This document shows, in pieces, positions 5,053-27,032 of a stretch of DNA of 64,000 bases (its first letter is position 1; every line of letters begins with the position of its first letter). The notes under the pieces are model-generated. The model was not told the DNA's origin and made no database searches. It saw only the letters and a list, made by a program, of their open reading frames with translations. The DNA comes from Agarivorans sp. Alg241-V36 (lineage in GTDB: Bacteria; Pseudomonadota; Gammaproteobacteria; Enterobacterales; Celerinatantimonadaceae): positions 811,163 to 875,162 of the forward strand of contig NZ_UNRE01000001.1 of the NCBI RefSeq assembly GCF_900537085.1. Reading direction: 5' to 3'. A program made the translations under genes and the position numbers.

Positions 5053-6456
5053 ATGATTACTCCTGTGATTATGGCTGGCGGCTCTGGGTCGCGCTTGTGG
5101 CCGCTAAGTCGCTCTTTGTACCCCAAGCAGTTTCTTGCATTAACATCGCAAAATACCATGTTACAAGAAACCATTAGTCGTTTAGAGGGCGTTGCGACTA
5201 ACGCACCAATGGTTATCTGTAATGAAGAGCACCGTTTTGTAGTGGCTGAGCAATTGCGCGCCATTGACAAATCAGCATCAATTATTCTTGAGCCAGTTGG
5301 TCGCAATACTGCTCCTGCAGTAGCTATTGCTGCAGAAGCAGCGAAGGGCGACGACGACCCATTGCTATTTGTTTTGGCAGCCGATCATGTAATTCAAGAC
5401 GCCAGTGTTTTCCGCGAAGCACTAAACAACGCTATCCCCTTAGCTCAAGAGGGTAAGTTAGTGACTTTTGGCATCGTGCCAGATAAAGCTCACACCGGTT
5501 ATGGCTATATTCAGCGTGGCGATTCCATGGCTGACGGTAATGGCTACGTAGTAGAGCAGTTTGTTGAAAAGCCTGATGCAAGCACAGCCGCTGGATATGT
5601 AAATAGTGGAGAGTTCTACTGGAACAGTGGCATGTTTTTATTCAAGGCCAGTCGCTACCTAGAAGAGTTGACTCGGTGTAGGAGTGACATCGCACAAGTT
5701 TGCAGGCAAGCTATGGCCAACACCACCAAGGATCAAGATTTTATTCGTCTGGATGCAGAGGTTTTTGCGCAGTGTCCCGATGAGTCCATTGATTATGCGG
5801 TAATGGAACACACTAAAGACGCCGTGGTGGTACCACTTGATGCAGGTTGGAACGATATTGGTTCATGGTCGTCTTTATGGGAAGTGAACGCCAAAGACGA
5901 AGATGGCAATGTCATTTTAGGTGACACAATGCTCCACGATACAAGTAATTGCCTGGTGCATGGCGGAGAGCGCCTTATCGCGACGGTTGGCCTCAATGAC
6001 GTAGTGGTAATCGATACCAAGGATGCCTTGCTTGTTGCTGATAAGGCTCGAGTGCAAGACGTGAAAAAAATCGTTGAACAACTTAAAGCGGATAAACGAG
6101 GTGAGTATGAAAATCACCGCGAAGTGTATCGTCCTTGGGGTAAGTATGACTCCATAGGCACAGGTGCTCGAGATCAGGTTAAACGGATCACAGTGAAGCC
6201 CGGTGGCAAGTTGTCGATTCAAAAGCATTATCATCGTGCTGAACATTGGATTGTTGTATCTGGTACAGCCAGTGTGTTGCGAGGTGAAGAAACACAATTG
6301 GTGACTGAAAATCAATCTATTTATATTCCGCTAGGTACAGTACACGCCCTAGAAAACCCCGGAAAAATCCCACTAGAAATGATTGAAGTGCAAACCGGTA
6401 GTTACCTTGGCGAAGACGATATTGTTCGCTTTGAAGATAAATACGGCCGAGTATAA
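5053..6456 (+). CDS. manC: Mannose-1-phosphate guanylyltransferase / mannose-6-phosphate isomerase
   Basis: Bifunctional cytoplasmic enzyme: it makes GDP-mannose from GTP and mannose-1-phosphate and interconverts fructose-6-P and mannose-6-P. The 467 residues match the usual ManC/CpsB length. The N-terminal nucleotidyltransferase domain has '[11 protein letters not shown]' (7-17), a sugar-site 'VEKPD', and 'NSGMFLF'. The C-terminal cupin isomerase domain (about 350-467) has 'YRPWGKY' and the metal-site stretch '[17 protein letters not shown]'. It is followed by manB after a three-base gap, so the two are translationally close. Together they supply GDP-mannose to gmd and fcl. Confidence is high. 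Confidence 0.95.
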
Positions 6457-6471
6457 GGAGTGAACACGCCA

Positions 6472-7899
6472 ATGGTAGTTAATCTAACCACGAGTAAAGT
6501 CATTAAAGACAGCGGCGTCGCGTTTGGTACCAGTGGCGCAAGAGGTTTGGTGACCCAGTTTACGCCGGATGTATGTGCGGCTTTCAGTCATGCCTTCATT
6601 GAAAGTATGCGCGTCAATTTTACTTTCGATACCGTTGCAATAGCGATTGATAATCGTCCTAGTAGTTATGCAATGGCGCAAGCCTGCGTTGCAGCACTTC
6701 AACAGCAAGGTTTACAGGTTGTTTACTATGGGGTGGTGCCTACGCCTGCCTTGGCTTATGTAGCTCAAGAAGACCAGATGCCGGCAATTATGGTTACCGG
6801 CAGCCATATTCCTTTTGATAGAAATGGCCTTAAGTTTTATCGCCCCGACGGTGAAATCTCCAAAAACGATGAACAGGCCATTATTAACGCAAGCGTTGGG
6901 TTTAAAGCGCTTGAAAGTCTACCTGAGCTTGAAATAAATAACCGCGCTGCAGAAGAATACATCTACCGTTATACCTCACTGTTCGAACACCCTTTTTTAA
7001 GCGGTAAGCGTATTGGCATTTATGAGCATTCCAGTGCGGGTAGAGACTTGTATTACCGTATTTTTGAAGCCTTGGGTGCTGAAGTCGTGGCAATCGAGCG
7101 CAGTGATAGCTTTGTGCCTATTGATACCGAAGCAGTATCACAAGAGGATAAGCGTAAAGCAAGGGCCTGGGCTAAACAGTATAATCTTGACGTGGTGTTC
7201 TCAACCGATGGTGATGGTGATAGGCCTCTTGTATCAGATGAAAACGGCGAGTGGCTACGCGGTGATCTCTTAGGCCTTCTGTGTGCTGATGAGCTCAATA
7301 TTGGTGCATTGGCTATACCAGTGAGTTGTAATACCGCCATTGAGCTAAGTAACAAGTTTGAATGGGTAAAGCGCACAAAAATTGGCTCCCCTTATGTGAT
7401 TGCAGAGTTCGTGGCGTTGAATAATGAATACACATCAGTAGCTGGCTTTGAAGCCAATGGTGGTTTTTTGCTTGGCAGTGATATCCAGATTAACGGTAAG
7501 GTGTTAAAAGCCTTGCCCACCAGAGATGCGGTGTTACCGGCAATTATGTTGTTAGTGGCTGCACAGCGCGCAAACATTAGTAAGCTAGTTGAAGAGTTAC
7601 CACAGCGCTTTACTGATAGCGATCGGATCCAAAATTTTGCCACAGCAAAAAGCCAACAAATCGTCGCTGATGGTACTAAAGATCCACAATGGTTAATGCA
7701 AAGTTTAGGTTTTGGAGATTTGGCTATTGTATCTGTGGATACCACTGATGGCTTAAGAATTGGGCTGGATAATCAACAGTTTGTGCACTTAAGACCATCT
7801 GGCAATGCCCCAGAGTTACGCTGCTATGCAGAGGCGGCGACAGTTGAACAGGCAATAGCAAGCGTTGAAAAAAGCTTAACGAATATTAGGTCACTTTAA
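6472..7899 (+). CDS. manB: Phosphomannomutase
   Basis: Converts mannose-6-phosphate to mannose-1-phosphate for ManC. The four hallmarks of the alpha-D-phosphohexomutase family are present: the active-serine loop '[12 protein letters not shown]' (Ser at about residue 111), the metal loop 'STDGDGDRP', the sugar loop 'GFEANGG', and the phosphate loop '[10 protein letters not shown]'. The serine loop reads GSHIP rather than the common ASHNP, a known variant. An upstream GTG (6460) would extend the protein by four residues, but it overlaps the AAGGAG ribosome site at 6455-6460, which is spaced 11 bases from ATG 6472; the ATG is therefore preferred. About 475 residues. Confidence 0.93.
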
Positions 7900-7950
7900 A
7901 CCTAGCATTTGAACGTTTAAGAAATTGAAATAACGAATTGGAATACAGTG

Positions 7951-9084
7951 ATGTCTAAAAATAAAGTGGCTTTAATTACCGGCGTGACGGGCCAAGATGG
8001 CTCTTACCTTGCTGAGTTACTATTAGAAAAAGGGTATGAAGTACATGGTATTAAACGCCGAGCTTCATCATTAAATACTGACCGAGTGGATCACATTTAC
8101 CAAGATGTGCATGAATCTAACCCTAAGTTCTTTTTGCACTACGGTGATTTAACCGATTCGTCTAACTTAACCCGTATCATTAAAGACATACAGCCAGACG
8201 AAGTCTATAACCTTGCAGCTCAATCTCATGTTGCGGTCTCTTTTGAATGTCCTGAATATACTGCCGACGTAGATGCCATGGGCACTTTACGCTTGTTAGA
8301 AGCAATCCGCTTTTTAGGCTTAGAAAAGAAAACCAAGTTTTATCAAGCATCTACCTCAGAGCTTTACGGTGAAGTGCAAGAGATCCCTCAAAAAGAGACT
8401 ACGCCATTTCACCCGCGCTCGCCTTACGCGGTAGCCAAAATGTACGCTTACTGGATCGTAGTGAACTACCGAGAGTCATACGGAATGTATGCCTGTAACG
8501 GTATTCTATTTAACCATGAATCACCACGTCGTGGTGAAACCTTTGTTACGCGTAAAATTACTCGTGCTATCGCAAATATTTCGCAAGGTTTAGAGCCGTG
8601 CTTATACCTCGGTAATATGGATGCACTGCGCGACTGGGGGCACGCTAAAGACTACGTGCGTATGCAATGGATGATGTTACAACAAGATCAAGCTGATGAC
8701 TTTGTTATTGCTACTGGCAAGCAAATAAGCGTGCGTGAATTTGTGAAACTGTCAGCCAAAGAAGCAGGTATAGAGCTTGAGTTTACAGGTGAAGGACTAG
8801 ATGAGATCGGCACCGTTAAATCAGTGACAGGCGACAACGCTCCTGCACTAAACGTAGGGGATGTAATTGTGAAGGTTGATCCACGTTACTTCCGCCCTGC
8901 AGAAGTTGAAACCTTACTGGGAGACCCAAGCAAAGCAAAAGCTAAGTTGGGCTGGGTGCCTCAAATTACAGTAGAAGAAATGTGTGCAGAAATGGTGCAG
9001 CACGACTTGAGCAAAGCTAAACAACACGCTTTGTTAAAAGCTCATGGCCATAAAGTAGCCATTGCCGTAGAAAACCAAGGGTAG
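7951..9084 (+). CDS. gmd: GDP-mannose 4,6-dehydratase
   Basis: First committed step to GDP-L-fucose: GDP-D-mannose to GDP-4-keto-6-deoxy-mannose with NADP. Extended short-chain dehydrogenase fold with the cofactor loop '[15 protein letters not shown]' at the N-terminus, the '[10 protein letters not shown]' segment and the catalytic 'YAVAK' Tyr/Lys pair, then '[15 protein letters not shown]', a Gmd signature. About 377 residues, as expected. GTG 7948 is directly followed by ATG 7951 in frame; the ATG is chosen. It is followed by fcl with a 5-base gap. The pair should deliver GDP-L-fucose to glycosyltransferases in locus A. Confidence 0.96.
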
Positions 9085-9089
9085 CTGCC

Positions 9090-10058
9090 ATGGACCAGAA
9101 TAGTAGGATTTATGTTGCCGGGCACCGAGGCATGGTGGGCTCGGCCATAGTGCGCCAGTTAGAAGCAAGTGGTTATAGTAATATAGTTACCAGGACTCGT
9201 GATGAGCTCGACTTAACGAACCAGCAAGCAGTGTTCGATTTTTTCAAAGCTGAGAACATTGATCAAGTTTACTTAGCTGCAGCTAGGGTAGGGGGTATTG
9301 TGGCAAACAATACCTACCCTGCTGATTTCATTTATGAAAACTTAATGATTCAGTGCAATATTATTCATGCTGCGCATTTAGCTAATATACAGAAACTACT
9401 ATTTTTAGGATCATCGTGTATTTATCCTAAGTTAGCTCCACAGCCAATGACCGAAGCTGCTTTGTTAACGGGTGAGTTAGAGCCAACTAACGAGCCTTAC
9501 GCAGTAGCAAAAATTGCTGGTATTAAGTTATGTGAAAGCTACAATCGGCAGTTTGGACGAGATTATCGCAGTGTAATGCCCACGAATTTATATGGGCCCA
9601 ATGATAACTTTCATCCAGAAAATAGCCACGTTATTCCTGCTTTAATTAGACGCTTCCATGAAGCTAAGTTGAACGGAGATAAAGAAGTAGTAGCTTGGGG
9701 AAGCGGCAAGCCAATGCGCGAGTTTTTATACGTAGATGATATGGCGAATGCTTCCATTCATGTTATGAACTTAGCTAAAGATAATTATGAAGCCCATACC
9801 CAACCTATGTTAAGCCATATTAACGTGGGAACTGGAACTGATTGTACTATTCGCGAGTTAGTTGAGACGGTTGCTAAGGTTGTAGGATTTAAAGGCTCCA
9901 TTAAGTTTGATGTGACTAAACCAGATGGAGCACCTAGGAAGTTGATGAATGTTGATCGGCTACAATCTCTAAACTGGGTATATTCGATAGAGTTATATGA
10001 TGGATTAGAGGCGACTTATCAGTGGTTTAACGAAAATATAGATATGTTTAGAGGTTAA
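9090..10058 (+). CDS. fcl: GDP-L-fucose synthase (3,5-epimerase/4-reductase)
   Basis: Converts the Gmd product to GDP-L-fucose with NADPH. SDR fold with 'GHRGMVGSA' (11-19), 'AARVGGI' and the catalytic Ser-Tyr-Lys set in '[10 protein letters not shown]' and 'PYAVAKIAG'. 322 residues, the usual length. It completes the GDP-mannose to GDP-fucose block that begins at 4512 with uniform spacing and orientation, so one transcript is likely. A 260-base gap with an inverted repeat follows, after which base composition drops and the less familiar cassette begins. Confidence 0.95.
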
Positions 10059-10320: not shown

Positions 10321-10953
10321 ATGAAAAATATTATTGCTCATCGAGGATTTTGGTTTGATATTGCAGAACAAAATACACAAGTGGCCTTTGAACGAGCTCT
10401 TTCTAATAAGTTTGGTATTGAAACTGATTTAAGGGATCATGATGGTTTCGTTGTTATCAGTCATGATATGCCTGATTCGCAATCTATGAGTTATAATGAG
10501 TTTCTAACGACATGTAGCAGATATGACAGGCAATTAGTATTAGCACTAAATATAAAATCTGATGGTTTACAAGCCTTATTAAAGCAATCTGAAATTAGAA
10601 ATTCACACTTTTACTTTGATATGTCTGTGCCGGATATGTTGGGTTTTCACAAACAGCAATTACCTACATACAGCCGCTACTCAGATATTGAAACGGTACC
10701 ATCTCTATATAAAGAGAGTCCTGGGATTTGGCTAGATAATTTCAGAGACGAAACCTTAGATCTAGATGCTCTAAAACGGTTTCTTATTGACAAAAAGTCA
10801 GTCGTGTTAGTTTCTCCAGAGTTACATAATAGGGATAAAACTGGCTATTGGGAATCCTTGAAAAAATTTATAAATAGAAACCAGCAGTGGAGTGAATTAA
10901 TAGGATTATGTACAGATTATCCTTCGAAAGCAAGAGAGTATTTTTATGACTAA
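10321..10953 (+). CDS. Glycerophosphodiester phosphodiesterase-like (GDPD/PI-PLC fold) protein
   Basis: A 210-residue cytoplasmic-type protein with no signal peptide. Catalytic features of the GDPD family are visible: 'IAHRG' (His7, Arg8), 'GIETDLRDH' (Glu34 and Asp36 as metal ligands) and 'VISHDM' (His48). It is shorter than classical GlpQ, and the C-terminal half diverges. It overlaps the next gene (HAD phosphatase) by 8 bases and leads a cassette of HAD, two nucleotidyltransferases and a cupin. It may therefore act on a phosphodiester intermediate or a sugar-linked glycerol phosphate rather than in lipid turnover. That substrate idea is inference from context; the fold call rests on the motifs. 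Confidence 0.7.
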   Translation: MKNIIAHRGFWFDIAEQNTQVAFERALSNKFGIETDLRDHDGFVVISHDMPDSQSMSYNEFLTTCSRYDRQLVLALNIKSDGLQALLKQSEIRNSHFYFDMSVPDMLGFHKQQLPTYSRYSDIETVPSLYKESPGIWLDNFRDETLDLDALKRFLIDKKSVVLVSPELHNRDKTGYWESLKKFINRNQQWSELIGLCTDYPSKAREYFYD

Positions 10954-11581
10954 GAACATTAAAGCGGTCATCTTTGATATGGACGGCGTTCTAATTGACG
11001 CTAAAGATTGGCATTATGATGCTTTAAATAAAGCTCTAGAAATCTTTGGCCTAACAATCAGTAGGCATGATCACCTAACGACTTTTGATGGTTTATCTAC
11101 AGGGCAGAAACTGAAGATGTTGTCTAAGGTTCATGTTCTCCCTGAATCGTTACATGACTTTATAAACGAAATGAAGCAACAATATACGATGGATATCACT
11201 CATCAGTTATGCAAGCCTATATTTCATCATCAGTTTGCGTTGTCTAAGTTGAAAGAGAATGGTTACCAGCTAGCTGTCGCTTCTAACTCTATTCGGAATA
11301 CCGTTAAAGTTATGATGGAAAAGTCTGCATTGATGGAGTATCTCGATTTTTATTTATCAAACCAAGACGTATTGAAAAGCAAGCCTGACCCTGAAATTTA
11401 TGACTTGGCAATTTCAAGATTGGGACTCAAACCGGAAGAGTGTTTGATTGTTGAAGATAATGAAAATGGTTTAAAAGCTGCTTATGCATCAGGGGCTCAT
11501 GTATTGAAAGTCGATACTATTCATGATGTTAATTTTGACAATATTACTCGCTTTATTAATGAGGTTGAATCATATGCTTAA
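10946..11581 (+). CDS. HAD-family phosphatase / beta-phosphoglucomutase-like
   Basis: A 211-residue HAD hydrolase with all four motifs: I 'FDMDGVLID' (nucleophile Asp11, Asp13), II 'VASNS', III Lys in 'SKPDPEIYD', and IV 'IVEDNENGLKAA'. The helical cap after motif I is of the beta-phosphoglucomutase/phosphatase class. It overlaps the GDPD-like gene upstream by 8 bases and the nucleotidyltransferase gene downstream (ATG 11574), so the three are translationally coupled. In a nucleotide-sugar pathway such an enzyme would remove a phosphate from, or isomerise, a sugar or polyol phosphate. The actual substrate is unknown. Confidence 0.8.
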   Translation: MTKNIKAVIFDMDGVLIDAKDWHYDALNKALEIFGLTISRHDHLTTFDGLSTGQKLKMLSKVHVLPESLHDFINEMKQQYTMDITHQLCKPIFHHQFALSKLKENGYQLAVASNSIRNTVKVMMEKSALMEYLDFYLSNQDVLKSKPDPEIYDLAISRLGLKPEECLIVEDNENGLKAAYASGAHVLKVDTIHDVNFDNITRFINEVESYA

Positions 11582-12665
11582 TATTCTAGTTCCTCTTTCC
11601 GGGGCGAGTACGTTTAAAGTGTCTAAGGAAAACAAGTTTCCGAGGATATTAAATGATGTAAATGGGAAACTTTTAATAGAACGAGCTGCAAAGCCGTTTC
11701 TAGACTTAAAGTTAGCCAATCAAATAACTGTTGCTCTCCCTCAGCCGGCAGCAAGTAAATACCAATTAAATAACGTACTAAAATTGTTGGGCAGCCATAT
11801 TAAGAGTTGTGCAATTAATGGTAATACACAAGGGTCCGCTTGTTCAGCGTTACTCGCAATTGAGGAGCTTCAGCTTGACGCTCCGTTGGTTATTGCAAGT
11901 TTTGAACAAGTGCTTGATTTTGATATCAATGAACATATACAAGGCTTTATTGATGATGGGGTTGATGCAGGAGTGTTTACCTTCGAGGCAATGCACCCTA
12001 AGTGGTCTTTTGTTAAGGTCGATGAGCATAACTTTGTAACACAAGCCGCAGAAAAAATGCCAATAAGTAACAAAGCAATTGCTGGCCTATATTATTTTAG
12101 GTCAGCAAGAATCTTTGTAGAGTCCGCCAAAGCTATGATTCGTAAAGATGTAAAAACTAACGGAAGTTTTTTCATTGCTCCTACATTGAACGAGATTATA
12201 TTGAATGAAGGAAAGGTTAAAGCAGTTGATATTGACAAATCGCGCTACTTTCATGTTACGGATGAGCACGAGCTCAGCAGCTATGAACAAAAATTAATAG
12301 AAAACAATGATAAACTAAAGTCACGAATTTACCATAAAACCAAAGAATATGTCGCAGCTTTTAATAGCAAATCGATTGAGTTAATCCTGCCTTTTTTATC
12401 CAATGACTTCGTATTAGTTGACCCTTCAGGTGAATTCAAAGGGAAGTCTGTAGCTAAAGAATATATTGAAGGTATTTTTAATGTTACTCAGAGACTAAAC
12501 TTTAATGCTATAAATATACACCAAACTACCAGTATGTATTCAGTAATAGAATTCGAATTAGTTCTTGATGGAAAAAAACTCGTGGGTACAGATATAATAA
12601 AATGGAATAACGAATTAAAAATGGAAGAAATGAAAGCTTATCTTTATGAGAATGCCGATGAATAA
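11574..12665 (+). CDS. Nucleotidyltransferase-like protein fused to an NTF2/SnoaL-like domain
   Basis: About 363 residues from the ATG at 11574, which overlaps the HAD stop by 8 bases; the longer frame from 11523 would add 17 residues inside the HAD gene and is unlikely. The N-terminal 230 residues resemble sugar nucleotidyltransferases ('MLNILVPLSG', 'VNGKLLIERA', 'PLVIASFEQVLDFDI', 'APTLNEII'). However, the glycine-rich NTP loop (G-x-G-x-R) is replaced by 'LSGASTFK', and the usual Asp of the metal site reads 'SFEQ'. The last 110 residues look like an NTF2/SnoaL-type fold ('YVAAFNSKSIELILPFLS', 'VLVDPSGEFKG'). Catalysis as a classical nucleotidyltransferase is doubtful; a regulatory or altered function is possible. 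Compare the canonical copy at 12982. Confidence 0.65.
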   Translation: MLNILVPLSGASTFKVSKENKFPRILNDVNGKLLIERAAKPFLDLKLANQITVALPQPAASKYQLNNVLKLLGSHIKSCAINGNTQGSACSALLAIEELQLDAPLVIASFEQVLDFDINEHIQGFIDDGVDAGVFTFEAMHPKWSFVKVDEHNFVTQAAEKMPISNKAIAGLYYFRSARIFVESAKAMIRKDVKTNGSFFIAPTLNEIILNEGKVKAVDIDKSRYFHVTDEHELSSYEQKLIENNDKLKSRIYHKTKEYVAAFNSKSIELILPFLSNDFVLVDPSGEFKGKSVAKEYIEGIFNVTQRLNFNAINIHQTTSMYSVIEFELVLDGKKLVGTDIIKWNNELKMEEMKAYLYENADE

Positions 12666-12981
12666 ATATAATATTAGTGATTTTGTTCGTGGGTGGATCG
12701 TTGGTGGCTTCGAGCCAACATTATTCAACACTACTGACGTCGAGTTTGCCATTCAAGAGTTTAAGAAGGGCGATAAGGAAGCTAACCATTGCCACAAAAT
12801 TGCCACAGAAATTACTGTAATTGTACAAGGTAAGGCTTTAATGAAAGATATGATATTGAATAAAGGTGATATTGTTAAGATCTCCCCTGGCGAATATACA
12901 AATTTTGAAGCATTAGAAGATACAACAACCGCAGTAATAAAATTACCAGGTGCGCTTAATGATAAATATCTGGAGGAGTAA
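12658..12981 (+). CDS. Small cupin-domain protein
   Basis: About 107 residues forming one cupin barrel. Motif 1 is visible as 'KKGDKEANHCHKIATEITVIVQG', cut here to its key residues His, His and Glu, and motif 2 as 'LNKGDIVKISPGEYTNFEA'. Three in-frame ATGs (12646, 12652, 12658) lie over the end of the upstream gene; 12658 is chosen because it gives the natural 'MNKYNISDF' start. The stop abuts the next ATG. Cupins here could be epimerases, metal-binding sensors or sugar-binding proteins; nothing in the sequence decides between them. It is coupled to the nucleotidyltransferases on both sides, so a role in making the same activated compound is inferred. Confidence 0.7.
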   Translation: MNKYNISDFVRGWIVGGFEPTLFNTTDVEFAIQEFKKGDKEANHCHKIATEITVIVQGKALMKDMILNKGDIVKISPGEYTNFEALEDTTTAVIKLPGALNDKYLEE

Positions 12982-13734
12982 ATGTTAAATATTGTAGTTC
13001 CAATGGCTGGTCGTGGCAGCAGGTTTGCTGATGCAGGGTATACAGACCCTAAGCCACTGATTGATGTACATGGTAAGCACATGATAGAAGTAGTTATTAA
13101 CAACTTAACTCCAAGTTGTAAACACCGATTTATTTTTGTCTGCCAGGAAGAGCATGTAAAAGCTTACAAATTGGAAGCTATATTTGCTAGAGCATGTGAA
13201 AATTTTGAAATAGTTTCAATTAATGGTGTTACCGAAGGTGCAGCTATTACGGTACTAAAGGCTCGCGACTATTTTGATAATGACCATCCATTAATGATTG
13301 CGAATTCAGACCAATGGGTTGATCTTAATATTAATGATTATTTACAAGATATGGAACAACGTAACCTCGATGGTAGTATGTTAACAATGAAAGCTGACGA
13401 TCCAAAATGGTCTTATGCAAAAGTTGATAGCCGAGGTGCTGTTTCTGAAGTGGTTGAAAAAGTTGTGATATCAGATGAAGCAACTGTAGGTATTTATAAC
13501 TTCGCTAAAGGAAGTGATTTTTGTCACTTTGCTGACTCTATGATCGAGCAAGACATTAGAAGCAATGGTGAATTCTACGTAGCGCCTGTTTACAGCTTCA
13601 TGGCCGATAAAGATCAAGATATAGGTATATATAATATTGGTGAAGAAGCTAAAGGTATGTATGGCTTAGGAATACCTAGTGACTTAACTTTATTTTTGTC
13701 TTTAAAAATATCCACTAAAGCGACTGATTTCTAG
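12982..13734 (+). CDS. Sugar-phosphate nucleotidyltransferase
   Basis: A 250-residue enzyme expected to activate a sugar or polyol phosphate with an NTP. Unlike its neighbour at 11574 it keeps the NTP-binding loop 'MAGRGSRFADAGY' (8-20), followed by 'DPKPLIDVHGK', the metal-site 'IANSDQWVD', a 'SYAKVD' strand and 'EVVEKV'. A ribosome site GGAGGA precedes the ATG, which directly follows the cupin stop. It shares general plan and some phrases with the 11574 protein, so one may have arisen from the other by duplication. Which nucleotide and sugar it uses cannot be told; cytidylyl- and guanylyltransferases of capsule loci look similar. Confidence 0.8.
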   Translation: MLNIVVPMAGRGSRFADAGYTDPKPLIDVHGKHMIEVVINNLTPSCKHRFIFVCQEEHVKAYKLEAIFARACENFEIVSINGVTEGAAITVLKARDYFDNDHPLMIANSDQWVDLNINDYLQDMEQRNLDGSMLTMKADDPKWSYAKVDSRGAVSEVVEKVVISDEATVGIYNFAKGSDFCHFADSMIEQDIRSNGEFYVAPVYSFMADKDQDIGIYNIGEEAKGMYGLGIPSDLTLFLSLKISTKATDF

Positions 13735-13735
13735 A

Positions 13736-14698
13736 ATGTTACGATATATACTAAAAAATAACTTTAGATCACTTAAGTCTTTCCTCGCGCTACAGAAACA
13801 AAAGAAAGAACAGGTATTCGAATTAACTTTGAACGGTGGTTTTGGGGATATTATTCTAGACAGCCAGTTTTTATTAACATTAAGAGAGCAATACCCGAAA
13901 GCCACAATAAATGTTTATTATAGGGATGATGAGGCGGTAGCCGAACCTTCAAGCTTTAGTTGGGGAAAAACAAGGCATTACACTTCAAAGGATGGCGTAA
14001 GCTGCAATCCGATCACAGAGTGGTTAGAAGCTTTAAATTGTGTTGATACGTATACGGGCTGTAATATCGATAAGCTGGAACGAGGGATTCGAGTCTTCCC
14101 TGAGTCATTCCACAAATTTTTTGGCGGATATTGGACTCCCAATGAATTTAATAACAAAGTAAATACTATTATATTTAAGAATAGTAAATCTACTAATACA
14201 CTAGAGCATTTTAATGAATTGTTGTTTAATAAATGTGTGCCTATTGTAGCGTTACATTTAAGAAGAAATGCACAAAAAATAGTAGAAATGGCTTGTGTTA
14301 TACAAGATGAATTCCCGGATGTTCATTTCGTTTTACTGGGTTCTTCAGAACATCAAACTGTGCCAGACACAAATATGTTAAAAAATAAGACCTCATTGAT
14401 TGATAGTTATTCTAAAGGGCTTAGCACTCTAGAGCTATTGTCTATTACACAACGGTTCGATTTATTTATCGGAGGGCGAGGAGGCTTTGAACTATTTCAC
14501 TGGTTATCAGAAACTCCCTCAGTCTGTTTTTTCGATGATATGGGAAAAAGGGAGATAGAACAATTATGGTGGCATCCATCGCTCTGGATAAATAATAAAA
14601 TTAATAAGCTTTACTTCTCAGATTCAAAGCTCCTTGATGTGCTTGACCATATAAATAGATCTAAGGTATTAGAATGTTCCAAAGACTATTACCATTAA
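13736..14698 (+). CDS. Putative glycosyltransferase, GT9/heptosyltransferase-like
   Basis: A 320-residue soluble protein. 'ELTLNGGFGDIILDSQFLLT' near residues 28-47 matches the N-terminal glycine-rich GD.. loop of the ADP-heptose transferase (GT9) class. The C-terminal 'FVLLGSSEH' and 'FIGGRGGFELFHWLSE' resemble its nucleotide-sugar site. No signal peptide or membrane segment is present. It lies between the nucleotidyltransferase and the flippase and overlaps the latter by 25 bases. A glycosyltransferase role in the repeat unit is the most likely reading, but the match is partial and the donor is unknown. Confidence 0.55.
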   Translation: MLRYILKNNFRSLKSFLALQKQKKEQVFELTLNGGFGDIILDSQFLLTLREQYPKATINVYYRDDEAVAEPSSFSWGKTRHYTSKDGVSCNPITEWLEALNCVDTYTGCNIDKLERGIRVFPESFHKFFGGYWTPNEFNNKVNTIIFKNSKSTNTLEHFNELLFNKCVPIVALHLRRNAQKIVEMACVIQDEFPDVHFVLLGSSEHQTVPDTNMLKNKTSLIDSYSKGLSTLELLSITQRFDLFIGGRGGFELFHWLSETPSVCFFDDMGKREIEQLWWHPSLWINNKINKLYFSDSKLLDVLDHINRSKVLECSKDYYH

Positions 14699-15858: not shown

Positions 15859-16806
15859 ATGATTACATTATTCGATACAAGTATAGCGTCAAAAAATGTA
15901 GGCGACTTTATTATTATGGACGCTGTGAACGAGCAGCTGGCAAATATTATTCCTTTTGAGCAGATAGTTACTCTGCCTACCCATGATACTTTTGGGCGAG
16001 AAGGGCGACGGGTACTAAATTTATCTGAGTACTCAATCGTAGGGGGGACAAATTTATTATCATCTCATTTGCTTAGATATCAGCAATGGAAGTTCGGGGC
16101 TAAGGACCTGTTGACTCTAAATCATGCGGTTCTAATGGGTGTCGGTTGGTGGCAGTACCAAAACTCTCCCGACTTATATTCTAGAACAGTCTGGAATCGT
16201 GTGCTTAATAAAAAAATGCTGCACTCCGTTCGTGATTCATTCACTGAAAAGCAACTTTCTAAAATGGGCATTAAGAATGTTATTAATACTAGCTGTTCTA
16301 CTATGTGGGGGCTAACACCTGAGCATTGCAAAAAAATCAACCAATCTAAAAGCAACAATGTTGTTGTGACCTTAACCGACTACAACCGTGATCCTAATGC
16401 AGATCTTAAATTGATTAATTGTCTATTAGATAACTATTCTGAAGTAAGCTTCTGGCCACAAGGTAGTGGTGATGTAAGTTATTTCGAATCTCTGCACTCA
16501 TTATTTAAGCGTAATGTGACATTGCTAAATCCTAGTCTCACATGCTTAAATAACGCATTATCTAATGCCGATGTAGATTACGTAGGTACGCGACTGCATG
16601 CTGGCATTAGAGCTTTGCAATACAAAAAACGTACTATTATCATCGGGATCGATAATAGGGCAATTGAAAAATCTATTGACTTCAATCTCACAGTTTTAAA
16701 AAGAACGGACATTGAGAAGTTGAACGCTTTAATTAATAAAGAAATCGAAACTAAAATTAGAATTCCGTTTGAAAATATTCAAACTTGGAAATCTCAGTTT
16801 GTTTAG
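15859..16806 (+). CDS. Polysaccharide pyruvyl transferase family protein
   Basis: A 315-residue protein of the PS_pyruv_trans family (CsaB/WcaK/EpsI type). Such enzymes move pyruvate from phosphoenolpyruvate onto a sugar as a ketal. Visible family features are the N-terminal 'NVGDFIIMDAVNEQL', 'GGTNLLSSH' and 'HAVLMGVGWW', and the C-terminal 'YVGTRLHAGIRALQYKKRTIIIG' region, in which the R-LHA..AL core is characteristic. The ATG directly follows the flippase stop. If active it would give the polymer an acidic ketal group. It is followed by a 650-base gap without a gene. Confidence 0.75.
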   Translation: MITLFDTSIASKNVGDFIIMDAVNEQLANIIPFEQIVTLPTHDTFGREGRRVLNLSEYSIVGGTNLLSSHLLRYQQWKFGAKDLLTLNHAVLMGVGWWQYQNSPDLYSRTVWNRVLNKKMLHSVRDSFTEKQLSKMGIKNVINTSCSTMWGLTPEHCKKINQSKSNNVVVTLTDYNRDPNADLKLINCLLDNYSEVSFWPQGSGDVSYFESLHSLFKRNVTLLNPSLTCLNNALSNADVDYVGTRLHAGIRALQYKKRTIIIGIDNRAIEKSIDFNLTVLKRTDIEKLNALINKEIETKIRIPFENIQTWKSQFV

Positions 16807-23995: not shown

Positions 23996-24793
23996 ATGTT
24001 TTTGATTGCGGGTCCATGTGTCATCGAATCTGAAAGTTTAGTTCTAGATACTTTTGCACAGTTACAAGAGATTACAAGTAATCTTGGTATTGAATATATT
24101 GCAAAGTCGTCTTTCACGAAAGCTAATCGATCTTCAGTAAATGCTTTCACAGGTCCCGGTATTGATGAAGGATTGAAGATTTTGCAAAAAGCTAAGGATA
24201 AATTAGGTCTAAAGGTGTTAACTGACGTTCACGAAGACACTCCTCTGGAAGAGGTTGCTTCAGTAGTTGATGTCCTACAAACCCCTGCTTTTTTGTCACG
24301 TCAAACAGGTTTTATCCAACGCGTCGCATCTATAGGCAAACCGGTAAATATCAAAAAAGGACAGTGGATGCACCCAGCAGATATGGCGCCTGTAGTAGAA
24401 AAGTGTCGAACTGTTGGAAATGAAGATATTTGGCTTTGTGATAGAGGAACAAGTTTCGGCTTTGGTCAACTAGTTAACTACATGCCCGGTTTAAACATTA
24501 TGAAGGAGACTGGTTGTAAAGTGGTGATGGATGCAACCCACAGTGTTCAAATGCCTGGTACCTTGGGCGGTTCAACTGGTGGCAATAGGTATCATGTGCC
24601 AGCTATTGCGCGTGCGGCTGTTGCAGTTGGAATAGATGGACTATTTATGGAAACCCATCCAGATCCCGATAACGCACTGTGTGATGGGCCTAATATGTTG
24701 CCTCTCAAACATATGGAAGAGCTTCTTGAAACTCTTTTAGAGATTGATGAGGTTGTTCACCGCCGTTCCTTTATAGAGTCTAAATTGATTTAG
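23996..24793 (+). CDS. kdsA: 3-deoxy-8-phosphooctulonate (Kdo-8-P) synthase
   Basis: Condenses phosphoenolpyruvate with arabinose-5-phosphate to Kdo-8-phosphate. The (beta/alpha)8 barrel motifs are intact: 'IAGPCVIES' at the very start, 'KSSFTKANRSS', 'GLKVLTDVHE', 'KKGQWMHP', 'RGTSFGFGQLV', 'MDATHSVQ' and 'METHPDPDNALCDGPNM'. At 265 residues it lacks the short N-terminal extension seen in E. coli KdsA (284). A strong AAGGGGGA ribosome site precedes the ATG. It is the first of four adjacent Kdo genes, in the order kdsA-kdsC-kdsB-kdsD. Since Kdo is also needed for lipid A core, this set is probably a second, polysaccharide-dedicated copy. Confidence 0.95.
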   Translation: MFLIAGPCVIESESLVLDTFAQLQEITSNLGIEYIAKSSFTKANRSSVNAFTGPGIDEGLKILQKAKDKLGLKVLTDVHEDTPLEEVASVVDVLQTPAFLSRQTGFIQRVASIGKPVNIKKGQWMHPADMAPVVEKCRTVGNEDIWLCDRGTSFGFGQLVNYMPGLNIMKETGCKVVMDATHSVQMPGTLGGSTGGNRYHVPAIARAAVAVGIDGLFMETHPDPDNALCDGPNMLPLKHMEELLETLLEIDEVVHRRSFIESKLI

Positions 24794-24797
24794 TATT

Positions 24798-25358
24798 ATG
24801 GCTGTTAAATTAAATACCCCCATTAAGTTGGTTTTGTTTGATGTCGACGGCGTCATGACTGATGGAACCATTTATATGGCTGAGTCTGGCGAATTTTGTA
24901 AAGCATTCAATGTAAAAGATGGACTCGCTATTGAGTTGTTGCGTGCGCATGAGATTAAGTCTGGTGTTATATCTGGTAAAGCAAGTCCTGCGTTAACAAA
25001 TCGCTGCCAGAAACTAGGCTTTGATATCATCGAAACGGGTTGTAAGCACAAGCTTCCTAAGCTGGAACAAATCTGCACTAATTTTAATGTTACTGCTGAT
25101 GCTATAGCCTTTTGTGGTGATGATGTTCTCGATTTACCCATAATGGAGCGATGTGGTTTATCCGTAGCACCTGCAGATGCTCATCAGTTAGTTCTAGAAC
25201 AAGCTGATTGGGTATCTGCATATAAAGGTGGTTCTGGAATGGTTAGAGATTTTGTAGATACCTTATTACTGAGCCAAAGCAATATTGGGCTAAAGGAGAT
25301 ATATCAACCATTGCTAAGAAAAATCGCTCTAGATGACCTCACTGGTGTCGAACAATGA
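24798..25358 (+). CDS. kdsC: Kdo-8-phosphate phosphatase
   Basis: Removes the phosphate from Kdo-8-P to give free Kdo. A 186-residue cap-less (C0) HAD enzyme that acts as a tetramer in known relatives. Motifs: 'LFDVDGVMTDGTI' (nucleophile Asp near residue 14), 'GVISGK', then 'CKHKLPKLEQI' and 'AFCGDDVLDLPIM'. It follows kdsA by four bases and overlaps kdsB by four bases, so the three are coupled. No unusual features. Confidence 0.93.
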   Translation: MAVKLNTPIKLVLFDVDGVMTDGTIYMAESGEFCKAFNVKDGLAIELLRAHEIKSGVISGKASPALTNRCQKLGFDIIETGCKHKLPKLEQICTNFNVTADAIAFCGDDVLDLPIMERCGLSVAPADAHQLVLEQADWVSAYKGGSGMVRDFVDTLLLSQSNIGLKEIYQPLLRKIALDDLTGVEQ

Positions 25359-26104
25359 GTCCTCCCATAAAAGTAGTGATACCCGCTAGGTTTGGCTCTT
25401 CCCGTCTCGCAGGAAAACCCTTGCTTCAATTATGCGGAAAACCAATGTTTTGGCACGTGTTTCAAAGAACAGTTGAAGCAGGAGTTGCACCAGAAGATAT
25501 TGTGTTAGCGACAGATGACCAGCGCATATACTCAGAAGCGACTCGCTTGGAGATAACTTGCTTGATGACTGCCGTGGATCATGCCAGCGGTACGGACCGG
25601 TTAAATGAGGTTGCGAATAAACTTAATTGGATTAATGATACGCTGGTCATCAATGTTCAAGGAGATGAGCCGTTAATTCCTAGCCAATTAATTCAACAAC
25701 TCATTAATTTTACTAATGAAAGACCACATTTTGATATCACAACTGCAGTATCACCGATTCAAACTACTGAAGATGTAACTAATCCCAACATAGTGAAGGT
25801 GGCTATGGGAGAGCACAATCGAGCTGTTTACTTCTCTCGCTCAGCTATCCCCTTTAACCGTGATGAGCCTAACTGTGTAGATATGATATATCGTCATATT
25901 GGAATATATGCGTATTCAGTAAAAAGTCTTCAGCAATTTTGCCAATACCCAGAATCGGCTATAGAAAGGATGGAAAAGCTTGAGCAATTGCGAGCGTTGA
26001 GTAATGGTTTGAGCATTGGTGCAACGATTGTTGAAGAGGCACCGCCCCATGGTATTGATACCAAGCAAGATTATGTCAACATTAAATATTTGATGGAAAG
26101 CTAA
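25355..26104 (+). CDS. kdsB: 3-deoxy-manno-octulosonate (CMP-Kdo) cytidylyltransferase
   Basis: Activates Kdo with CTP to CMP-Kdo, the donor for Kdo transferases. 249 residues with 'VVIPARFGSSRLAGKPL' at the N-terminus, 'GKPMFWHVFQR', 'VLATDD', 'GTDRLNE' and 'INVQGDEPLI', all standard KdsB/KpsU motifs. The ATG overlaps the kdsC stop (ATGA type). It is followed by kdsD after one base. In this locus the product would be used by the KpsS-like protein at 21435 or another transferase. Confidence 0.95.
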   Translation: MSPPIKVVIPARFGSSRLAGKPLLQLCGKPMFWHVFQRTVEAGVAPEDIVLATDDQRIYSEATRLEITCLMTAVDHASGTDRLNEVANKLNWINDTLVINVQGDEPLIPSQLIQQLINFTNERPHFDITTAVSPIQTTEDVTNPNIVKVAMGEHNRAVYFSRSAIPFNRDEPNCVDMIYRHIGIYAYSVKSLQQFCQYPESAIERMEKLEQLRALSNGLSIGATIVEEAPPHGIDTKQDYVNIKYLMES

Positions 26105-26105
26105 T

Positions 26106-27032
26106 ATGTCAGTTATTGAACGCGCTAAAGAAGTTATCCGCACAGAAATTAGCGGTTTAGAATTTATGGCTACACAGTTGGGCCAGTCTTTTGAAGATGC
26201 TGTAGATGCAATTCTAAATACGAAAGGGCGGACTATTATTTGTGGTATGGGTAAATCTGGCATTATTGGTAAAAAAATTGCTGCCTCGTTTGCAAGCACA
26301 GGAACAGCTGGTTTTTTTATGCACCCAGGAGAAGCATTCCACGGTGATTTGGGTATGGTTAAGCCAGAAGATGTGTTTATTGCTATATCCAACTCCGGTG
26401 AAACAGACGAAGTGCTTAAATTGCTGCCTTTCTTGCGTGATAATGGCAATTTTATTATCGCAATCACTGGTCGACCAGCCTCTTCATTAGCAAAATCTGC
26501 GCAGTGTCACTTGGATATTTCTGTCCCTCAGGAAGCATGTCCATTGCAACTTGCTCCAACGGCCTCGACCACTGCAACGCTGGCTATGGGGGATGCTTTG
26601 ACGATTTGTTTAATGGAAGAGCGTAATTTCAAACCAGAAAATTTTGCTCGCTTTCATCCTGGCGGAAGCCTTGGTCGCCGCTTACTTGGAAAAGTAAGAG
26701 ATGAGATGATTTCCGATTATTTACCACTAGTAAAGCCAGATACTCCTTTTAAAGATGTTATTAATATTATTTCAAGTGGACAGTTGGGACTTGCGGTAAT
26801 TCTAGAGTCTTCTAAAACGGGAATTATTACGGATGGAGATTTGCGGCGTGCTATGGAAAGTAGAGGGAAAGATGTATTCGATCTAACCGCAATAGATATT
26901 GCAACTTTTGACCCCGTTTCCACCTCACCTGAAGTTAGCATTCAGACTGCATTTAAAGTTATGGATGAAAACAAGATTAACGCATTGTTAGTTTTTGAGG
27001 CGGATAGTGTCGTGGGTTTATTAAGGAAATAG
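26106..27032 (+). CDS. kdsD: Arabinose-5-phosphate isomerase (KdsD/KpsF family), short C-terminus
   Basis: Makes arabinose-5-phosphate from ribulose-5-phosphate for KdsA. The SIS domain (about 30-165) has 'GMGKSGIIGKKIAASFASTG', 'HPGEAFHGDLGM' and 'SNSGETDE'; two CBS domains follow (about 200-308). At 308 residues it is shorter than KdsD/KpsF (about 325). Most of the difference lies at the C-terminus, where the second CBS domain ends at 'VVGLLRK' without the expected final helix ('..HDLLRA..'). The stop is directly followed by the folded repeat element at 27046, so the gene end may have been cut or rewritten by that insertion. The SIS active site is intact, so activity is still plausible. Confidence 0.9.
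   Translation: MSVIERAKEVIRTEISGLEFMATQLGQSFEDAVDAILNTKGRTIICGMGKSGIIGKKIAASFASTGTAGFFMHPGEAFHGDLGMVKPEDVFIAISNSGETDEVLKLLPFLRDNGNFIIAITGRPASSLAKSAQCHLDISVPQEACPLQLAPTASTTATLAMGDALTICLMEERNFKPENFARFHPGGSLGRRLLGKVRDEMISDYLPLVKPDTPFKDVINIISSGQLGLAVILESSKTGIITDGDLRRAMESRGKDVFDLTAIDIATFDPVSTSPEVSIQTAFKVMDENKINALLVFEADSVVGLLRK

Follow-up and report, generated by a model that had tools for sequence, protein, structure and literature searches.

A recurrent five-gene set with a GDPD-fold protein, a HAD hydrolase and a nucleotidyltransferase pair as a candidate cassette for a surface-polysaccharide building block

We analyzed a 64,000-nucleotide stretch of the Agarivorans sp. Alg241-V36 genome (hereafter, the window), which carries at positions 10321-13734 five closely packed genes. 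They encode a phosphodiesterase of predicted GDPD fold (PDE), a HAD-family hydrolase (HAD), a degenerate paralogue of nucleotidyltransferases that ends in a SnoaL-like domain (NTP2), a small cupin, and a nucleotidyltransferase with an intact signature (NTP1). This gene set is widespread and not peculiar to the window. On comparative sequence evidence it very probably constitutes a single functional unit devoted to a glycan precursor. The full mechanism proposed below, in which the five genes would constitute a cassette for a nucleotide-activated, phosphate-containing building block X of a surface polysaccharide, is in our judgment evenly balanced between being right and wrong. Recognition of the set as one pathway unit provides defined enzymes to test, could account for some of the WavE-family transferases, and would also supply a building block that is missing from polysaccharide structure prediction.

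All five open reading frames (ORFs) were found on the plus strand. With starts set by homologues, HAD overlaps PDE, NTP2 overlaps HAD and the cupin overlaps NTP2 by 8 bp each, and NTP1 directly abuts the cupin gene, so that the tight coupling described in an initial annotation of this DNA is borne out by the ORF coordinates. A promoter scan returned no more sites than were counted in shuffled sequences.

The same annotation had proposed a search for this gene order in other genomes. Relatives of PDE were identified in 373 stretches of named genomes, in 25 plasmid records, and in two of 197 related genomes, one of them the window's own and both carrying the set. They were retrieved from genome contigs by an alignment-based scan; single-sequence scans of viral contigs and genome contigs found no relatives, and a phage search gave no match. 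We compared 89 PDE loci, consisting of the 80 best-scoring of the 373 genome contigs, seven of the 25 plasmid records, one further genome and the window. Of these loci, 86 contain HAD, which lies directly downstream of PDE in 84, and all five families occur together in 62. The exact order of the window, PDE-HAD-NTP2(-SnoaL)-cupin-NTP1, recurs in 42 of the 89 loci, which span 11 phylum-level groups; in four more (L044, L068, L106 and L112) this order is modified by a split ORF, by fusion of NTP1 or by an additional paralogue at another position. In this survey ORF starts were picked mechanically, contigs of metagenome-assembled genomes may be misbinned, and the 'NTP2-SN' label was set by length, the domain being confirmed in seven loci of the same order. 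Conservation of the set over such a taxonomic range, together with fusions of its members, bears out the suggestion that the five genes are one unit. The set often lies within surface-polysaccharide clusters, as judged by annotation or by eye and without a count. Its carriers annotate it merely as 'hypothetical protein', 'HAD family phosphatase' or 'glycosyltransferase family 2 protein', as for both nucleotidyltransferase-like genes on a Ruegeria plasmid.

The PDE tree covers 11 phylum-level groups and requires 17 group changes (minimum 10; mean after shuffling 26.4), with ranks taken from submitters' titles and 11 of the 89 rows lacking a group. This topology fits lateral spread across groups without proving it, and the cassette has probably spread horizontally. 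The window PDE pairs with that of Vibrio splendidus (65% identity) inside a supported group that unites Vibrionaceae with an alteromonad. The two cassettes have diverged unequally along their length, the HAD proteins of the window and V. splendidus (L036) being 89% identical. A blastn search with the PDE-HAD DNA of Lelliottia against 20,395 E. coli records gave no match, and thus no link to known serotype structures.

PDE (10321-10953; 210 aa) has no match at E<=0.1 in Pfam or NCBIfam, the GDPD profiles included, and its assignment is based on a profile search and the predicted fold. The structural model (pLDDT 97.0) has GDPDs as its top PDB fold matches (2o55 with TMq 0.75, 4oec, 1zcc and 3qvq), and other TIM barrels (DHPS) appear only from rank 13 and with weaker E-values. 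The family profile likewise retrieves GDPDs from the PDB (best E 1.8e-5), with the alignment covering mainly the N-terminal 50-65 residues. The GDPD active site comprises two catalytic histidines and a Glu/Asp/Glu metal site. In the PDE family, H7, R8, E34, D36, H48 and K79 are invariant in 50 aligned sequences, and the catalytic pattern is present in 85 of the 89 loci. The window PDE shares with GDPDs (UgpQ, 2pz0, 3qvq) both the predicted fold and the HR...ExD...HD...K active-site pattern, whereas it is only 13-16% identical to its fold matches, most of which exceed it in length by about 40 residues, and apparently has Asn in place of one acidic ligand. The original GDPD-like label agrees with the predicted fold, the profile search and the retained His pair, E34, D36 and K79, and the third metal ligand is apparently changed.

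HAD (10946-11581; 211 aa) belongs to the beta-phosphoglucomutase/phosphatase subfamily (PF13419, 123.7 bits), and its catalytic pattern is present in 86 of 86 loci. Its nearest NCBIfam group is TIGR02009 (119.1 bits, cut-off 153.35), and the other beta-phosphoglucomutase model, TIGR01990, gives 101.6 bits (cut-off 189.4), both matches being under their cut-offs. The EcbF/BcbF model TIGR01689 is absent among the 25 of 46 NCBIfam matches listed for this protein.

The two nucleotidyltransferase-like proteins differ in their signatures. NTP1 (12982-13734; 250 aa) is a member of PF00483 (48.5 bits, cut-off 21.2) with 4evw from Vibrio cholerae as its nearest PDB sequence; it matches the RmlA and GlmU models far below their cut-offs. 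Residues G10, G12, R14, K24 and D110 are invariant in 50 aligned sequences. NTP2 (11574-12665, with the start set by homologues inside a longest ORF from 11523) also matches 4evw in sequence (E 6.1e-7), and its model (pLDDT 94.8) has 4evw as the best fold match. The strict GxGSR...PK signature is found in 75 of 83 NTP1 rows, a number in which partial or remote rows (for example L033 and L121) are counted, and in 0 of 75 NTP2 sequences, three of which retain a looser G.G.R near the start. Moreover, natural NTP2::NTP1 fusions occur in 11 loci of Rhizobiales, Azospirillum and one unplaced proteobacterial bin (ten NTP2-NTP1 and one NTP2-NTP2-NTP1); in these the sole strict signature is that of the NTP1 half, L078 having none. 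Because of the signature loss and the fusions with NTP1, NTP2 is probably a non-catalytic partner subunit and NTP1 the active enzyme. Two independent activators were rejected on the signature counts, and the notion of two nucleotidyltransferases stands for the shared fold but probably not for two parallel activities.

Active and inactive nucleotidyltransferase paralogues that work together are known from GMPPA and GMPPB. The profile matches of NTP1 include 7d72, mannose-1-phosphate guanyltransferase beta, an entry which we take to be the GMPPA-GMPPB complex. The latter is a eukaryotic GDP-mannose enzyme, whereas an NTP1-NTP2 complex is suggested by gene pairing and fusions. A different fusion was seen in Campylobacter bilis (L106:4201-6048), where NTP1 is joined to a methyltransferase domain.

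The SnoaL-like domain at the end of the window NTP2 (12342-12662) scores below the cut-off of SnoaL_2 (24.6 against 27 bits). The domain belongs to the gene set: it is fused to NTP2 in nine loci, among which the window is counted (entry L116 is the window again), is fused to NTP1 in one, and forms a separate gene in 11 others, of which one, L058, was checked with Pfam (SnoaL_2, 45.3 bits). The cupin (12658-12981, start by homology inside a longest ORF from 12646) is similarly weak against Cupin_2 (16.6 bits, cut-off 27.2), and the HxHx4(E/Q) pattern is present in 68 of 68 loci, with H48, H50 and E55 invariant in 46 aligned sequences.

A WavE-like transferase is a frequent additional neighbour. 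WavE (PF07507) is rare: in a sample of 398 genomes from the phylum, four had it. One WavE-like family, family 0, was found in 39 of 96 loci examined, with one member checked (45.4 bits, cut-off 27), and a regular-expression search marked 45 of 89 loci. A broader count gives 55 of 86 loci, and 46 of 63 where all five families are present; it pools four families and is thus an upper figure, as in a profile comparison families 0 and 38 are tied (98%), family 32 is weakly connected (43% with family 0) and family 9 is untied (1.7%).

We further read eight genomic contexts of matches to 4evw-like nucleotidyltransferases or to WavE, three chosen for WavE and five for the nucleotidyltransferase alone; a WavE-like gene was present in three of the latter five, one of them weak (38 bits). 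These contexts contain a parallel operon encoding an EcbF/BcbF phosphatase, a protein of ~480-530 aa that joins a degenerate nucleotidyltransferase domain to an APH kinase, and a 4evw-like nucleotidyltransferase. In L138 the phosphatase matches TIGR01689 with 214 bits (cut-off 162) and the C-terminal half of the fused protein matches APH with 25.6 bits (cut-off 23.2); the N-terminus of the fused protein has, by eye, the look of a degenerate nucleotidyltransferase domain. In all seven of the 14 EcbF carriers that were checked, which are those of the window's taxonomic order and include its own genome, a 4evw-like nucleotidyltransferase lies 1.5-1.7 kb from EcbF. In the own genome this operon is found at ~86.9-89.6 kb of C1 (L139:6405-8557), the EcbF match there being partial (profile positions 27-90). 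A WavE/NTP/EcbF region from another member of the same order (L135:7982-9117) has a fragmented look.

This parallel operon shares with the window set a HAD protein, a degenerate-looking nucleotidyltransferase domain and an active-looking nucleotidyltransferase in surface-glycan clusters. Unlike the window set, it includes a kinase of the APH type, and its phosphatase is of class HAD-IIIC. The eight contexts, scanned for PDE and cupin, gave no match to either family, and none of the five window proteins matches APH at E<=0.1. The kinase thus appears to hold in the EcbF operon the place that PDE has in the window set.

A third arrangement accompanies remote PDE relatives in five of 398 genomes (L123-L127). 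Their neighbours, recognized mostly by eye and present in varying subsets, are a two-domain nucleotidyltransferase protein, a DPM-like family 2 glycosyltransferase, a class II aldolase, a GtrA-like protein and a membrane protein that contains a kinase domain of the PRK type; the domain check covered L126 and L127, the former being without several of them. The HAD protein of this arrangement is nearest to ribulose-bisphosphate 5-phosphatase, under cut-off. PDE, HAD and nucleotidyltransferase therefore recur together with different subfamilies.

Taken as a pathway, these observations suggest the following scheme. The GDPD-fold PDE would cleave a phosphodiester to supply, or later to trim, a phosphorylated unit, and HAD, nearly always beside it, would take off or shift a phosphate. 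Binding or isomerisation of the small molecule may be the task of the cupin and the SnoaL-like domain. NTP1 would catalyse the reaction NTP + X-P -> NDP-X + PPi, with NTP2 as a non-catalytic partner, most likely in a hetero-oligomer like that of GMPPA with GMPPB, and the WavE-like transferase, where present, would attach the product. Gene order, conservation, folds, loss and retention of motifs, fusions and co-occurrence are observed, whereas the catalytic steps, the NTP1-NTP2 complex, the nucleotide, the nature of X and the role of WavE are all inferred in this scheme. The weakest step is the delivery by PDE of a phosphorylated small molecule to NTP1, proposed because the kinase takes the place of PDE in the EcbF operon; whether PDE acts before activation or after transfer is for us a toss-up. 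As the nucleotidyltransferase of this sister operon seems to receive its substrate from a kinase of the APH type, X may be a small polyol or amino-alcohol phosphate, a guess by analogy that we consider rather doubtful.

Several observations weigh against this scheme. In PDE, the third GDPD metal ligand, acidic in UgpQ (NIEIK) and situated before the IK motif, apparently corresponds to the invariant N77, a call made by eye since automatic alignment misplaces that stretch. Because of this apparent replacement, the activity of PDE is uncertain, especially on glycerophosphodiesters. HAD shares with YcjU, the E. coli beta-phosphoglucomutase, the mutase His, and not its Arg and Thr; both a phosphatase and a mutase are possible for it, as the His is kept and the other two are lost. 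NTP2 was not detected in L066, L079, L101, L034 and L110, although L034 has at this position a 141-aa ORF that looks by eye like a shrunken copy. By the broad count 31 of 86 loci are without a WavE-like gene, and none was found in the window by either this count or the regular expression; thus, another transferase, perhaps that encoded by ORF 13736 (described below), would have to serve there.

The linkage of the genes also has its exceptions. Only PDE or PDE-HAD is seen in six loci, of which L067, L086, L107 and L114 are at contig ends, and in L045 and L046 the PDE genes lie well inside their contigs with no HAD, nucleotidyltransferase or cupin gene nearby. Because the 80 genome loci were taken by score from 373, best first, less strict combinations may be too few in these counts. 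The divergences of the five proteins correlate only moderately (rho 0.25-0.51 over 62 loci, exceeding all 200 permutations), and shared species history alone could yield such values. Finally, some carriers, L032 and L073 among them, are located outside an evident polysaccharide cluster, and for this reason we place the glycan-precursor unit slightly lower than we otherwise would.

Among other explanations, an ordinary NDP-sugar route would have the cupin and the SnoaL-like domain isomerise a sugar phosphate, HAD act as a beta-phosphoglucomutase-like enzyme that yields the 1-phosphate, NTP1 form the NDP-sugar, and PDE be accessory. The HAD matches to both mutase models, its retained mutase His, and the NTP1 assignment to PF00483 with weak RmlA and GlmU matches all agree with this route. 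On the other hand, both HAD scores fall below the cut-offs, the mutase Arg and Thr are lost, and the position of PDE directly before HAD in 84 of 86 loci would be odd for an accessory gene; we consider this route unlikely.

A comparably unlikely explanation is that PDE and HAD act after transfer and trim a phospho-linked unit on the growing glycan, with NTP1 supplying the donor. A precedent is Cj1435 of the Campylobacter jejuni HS:2 capsule, which is reported to hydrolyse a phosphate ester after coupling of ethanolamine-phosphate or serinol-phosphate (PMC12409886). In line with such trimming, PDE and HAD stay together in L034, L064, L071, L072, L098 and L110, where the cupin and NTP1 genes are a few genes off in the same stretch. 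However, the window HAD, with TIGR02009 as its best match, falls in another HAD group than EcbF, the family to which we assume Cj1435 belongs. That the five genes have nothing to do with each other and merely adjoin in a variable polysaccharide locus, as might be supposed from the mosaic cluster and from the equally tightly packed ORF 13736 without a counterpart in the fetched loci, is in practice refuted by recurrence over 89 loci and 11 groups, with five families in 62 loci, PDE-HAD adjacency in 84 of 86 and multiple fusions.

We then compared the proposed cassette with described pathways. The methyl phosphoramidate pathway of C. jejuni also employs a nucleotidyltransferase in capsule decoration and needs genes for a glutamine kinase and an amidotransferase-like hydrolase. 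No Pfam sign of either was found among the eight window proteins scanned, and orthology to this pathway was rejected for the different gene set. We also rejected a TagD-type route through CDP-glycerol, as none of the five proteins has a TagD-type match in Pfam; the glycerol-3-phosphate cytidylyltransferase (GCT) of C. jejuni is presumably of this type. The C. jejuni HS:1 route (PMC11924219) likewise makes a nucleotide-activated polyol phosphate for the capsule, using GCT and the two-domain polymerase HS1.09, and the passages that describe it mention no PDE, HAD, cupin or nucleotidyltransferase pair.

Searches of published open-access literature aimed at the five-gene set listed no paper naming it. 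The initial statement that a described pathway with exactly this gene order is not known is consistent with this result, although the silence of the literature is weak evidence of novelty. We propose only tentatively, and with more doubt than confidence, that the set represents a new multi-phylum route to a new class of nucleotide-activated glycan building block, in which a GDPD-fold enzyme would replace a kinase and feed a two-subunit nucleotidyltransferase of one active and one inactive chain, and a WavE-like transferase would attach the product.

In the window, the cassette is preceded by manC, manB, gmd and fcl (ORFs 5053-10058), named by eye and, for gmd and fcl, also by similarity to other loci; gmd- and fcl-like homologues are likewise found upstream of six foreign cassettes (L051, L083, L087, L102, L105 and L111). 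The location given earlier, between fcl and a flippase, is right on the upstream side, where fcl ends at 10058 and a gap of 262 bp separates it from PDE. On the downstream side an additional ORF (13736-14698) intervenes before ORF 14674, and the flippase name of the latter is unconfirmed, since for neither ORF did Pfam or NCBIfam give a match at E<=0.1. ORF 13736-14698, tightly packed after NTP1, has by eye the look of a family 9 glycosyltransferase and has no relatives among the ORFs of the fetched loci. Downstream of ORF 14674, a polysaccharide pyruvyl transferase (PF04230) is encoded at 15859. Further along the polysaccharide cluster, kdsA-, kdsC-, kdsB- and kdsD-like genes were recognized by eye at 23996-27032, ahead of rml-like genes.

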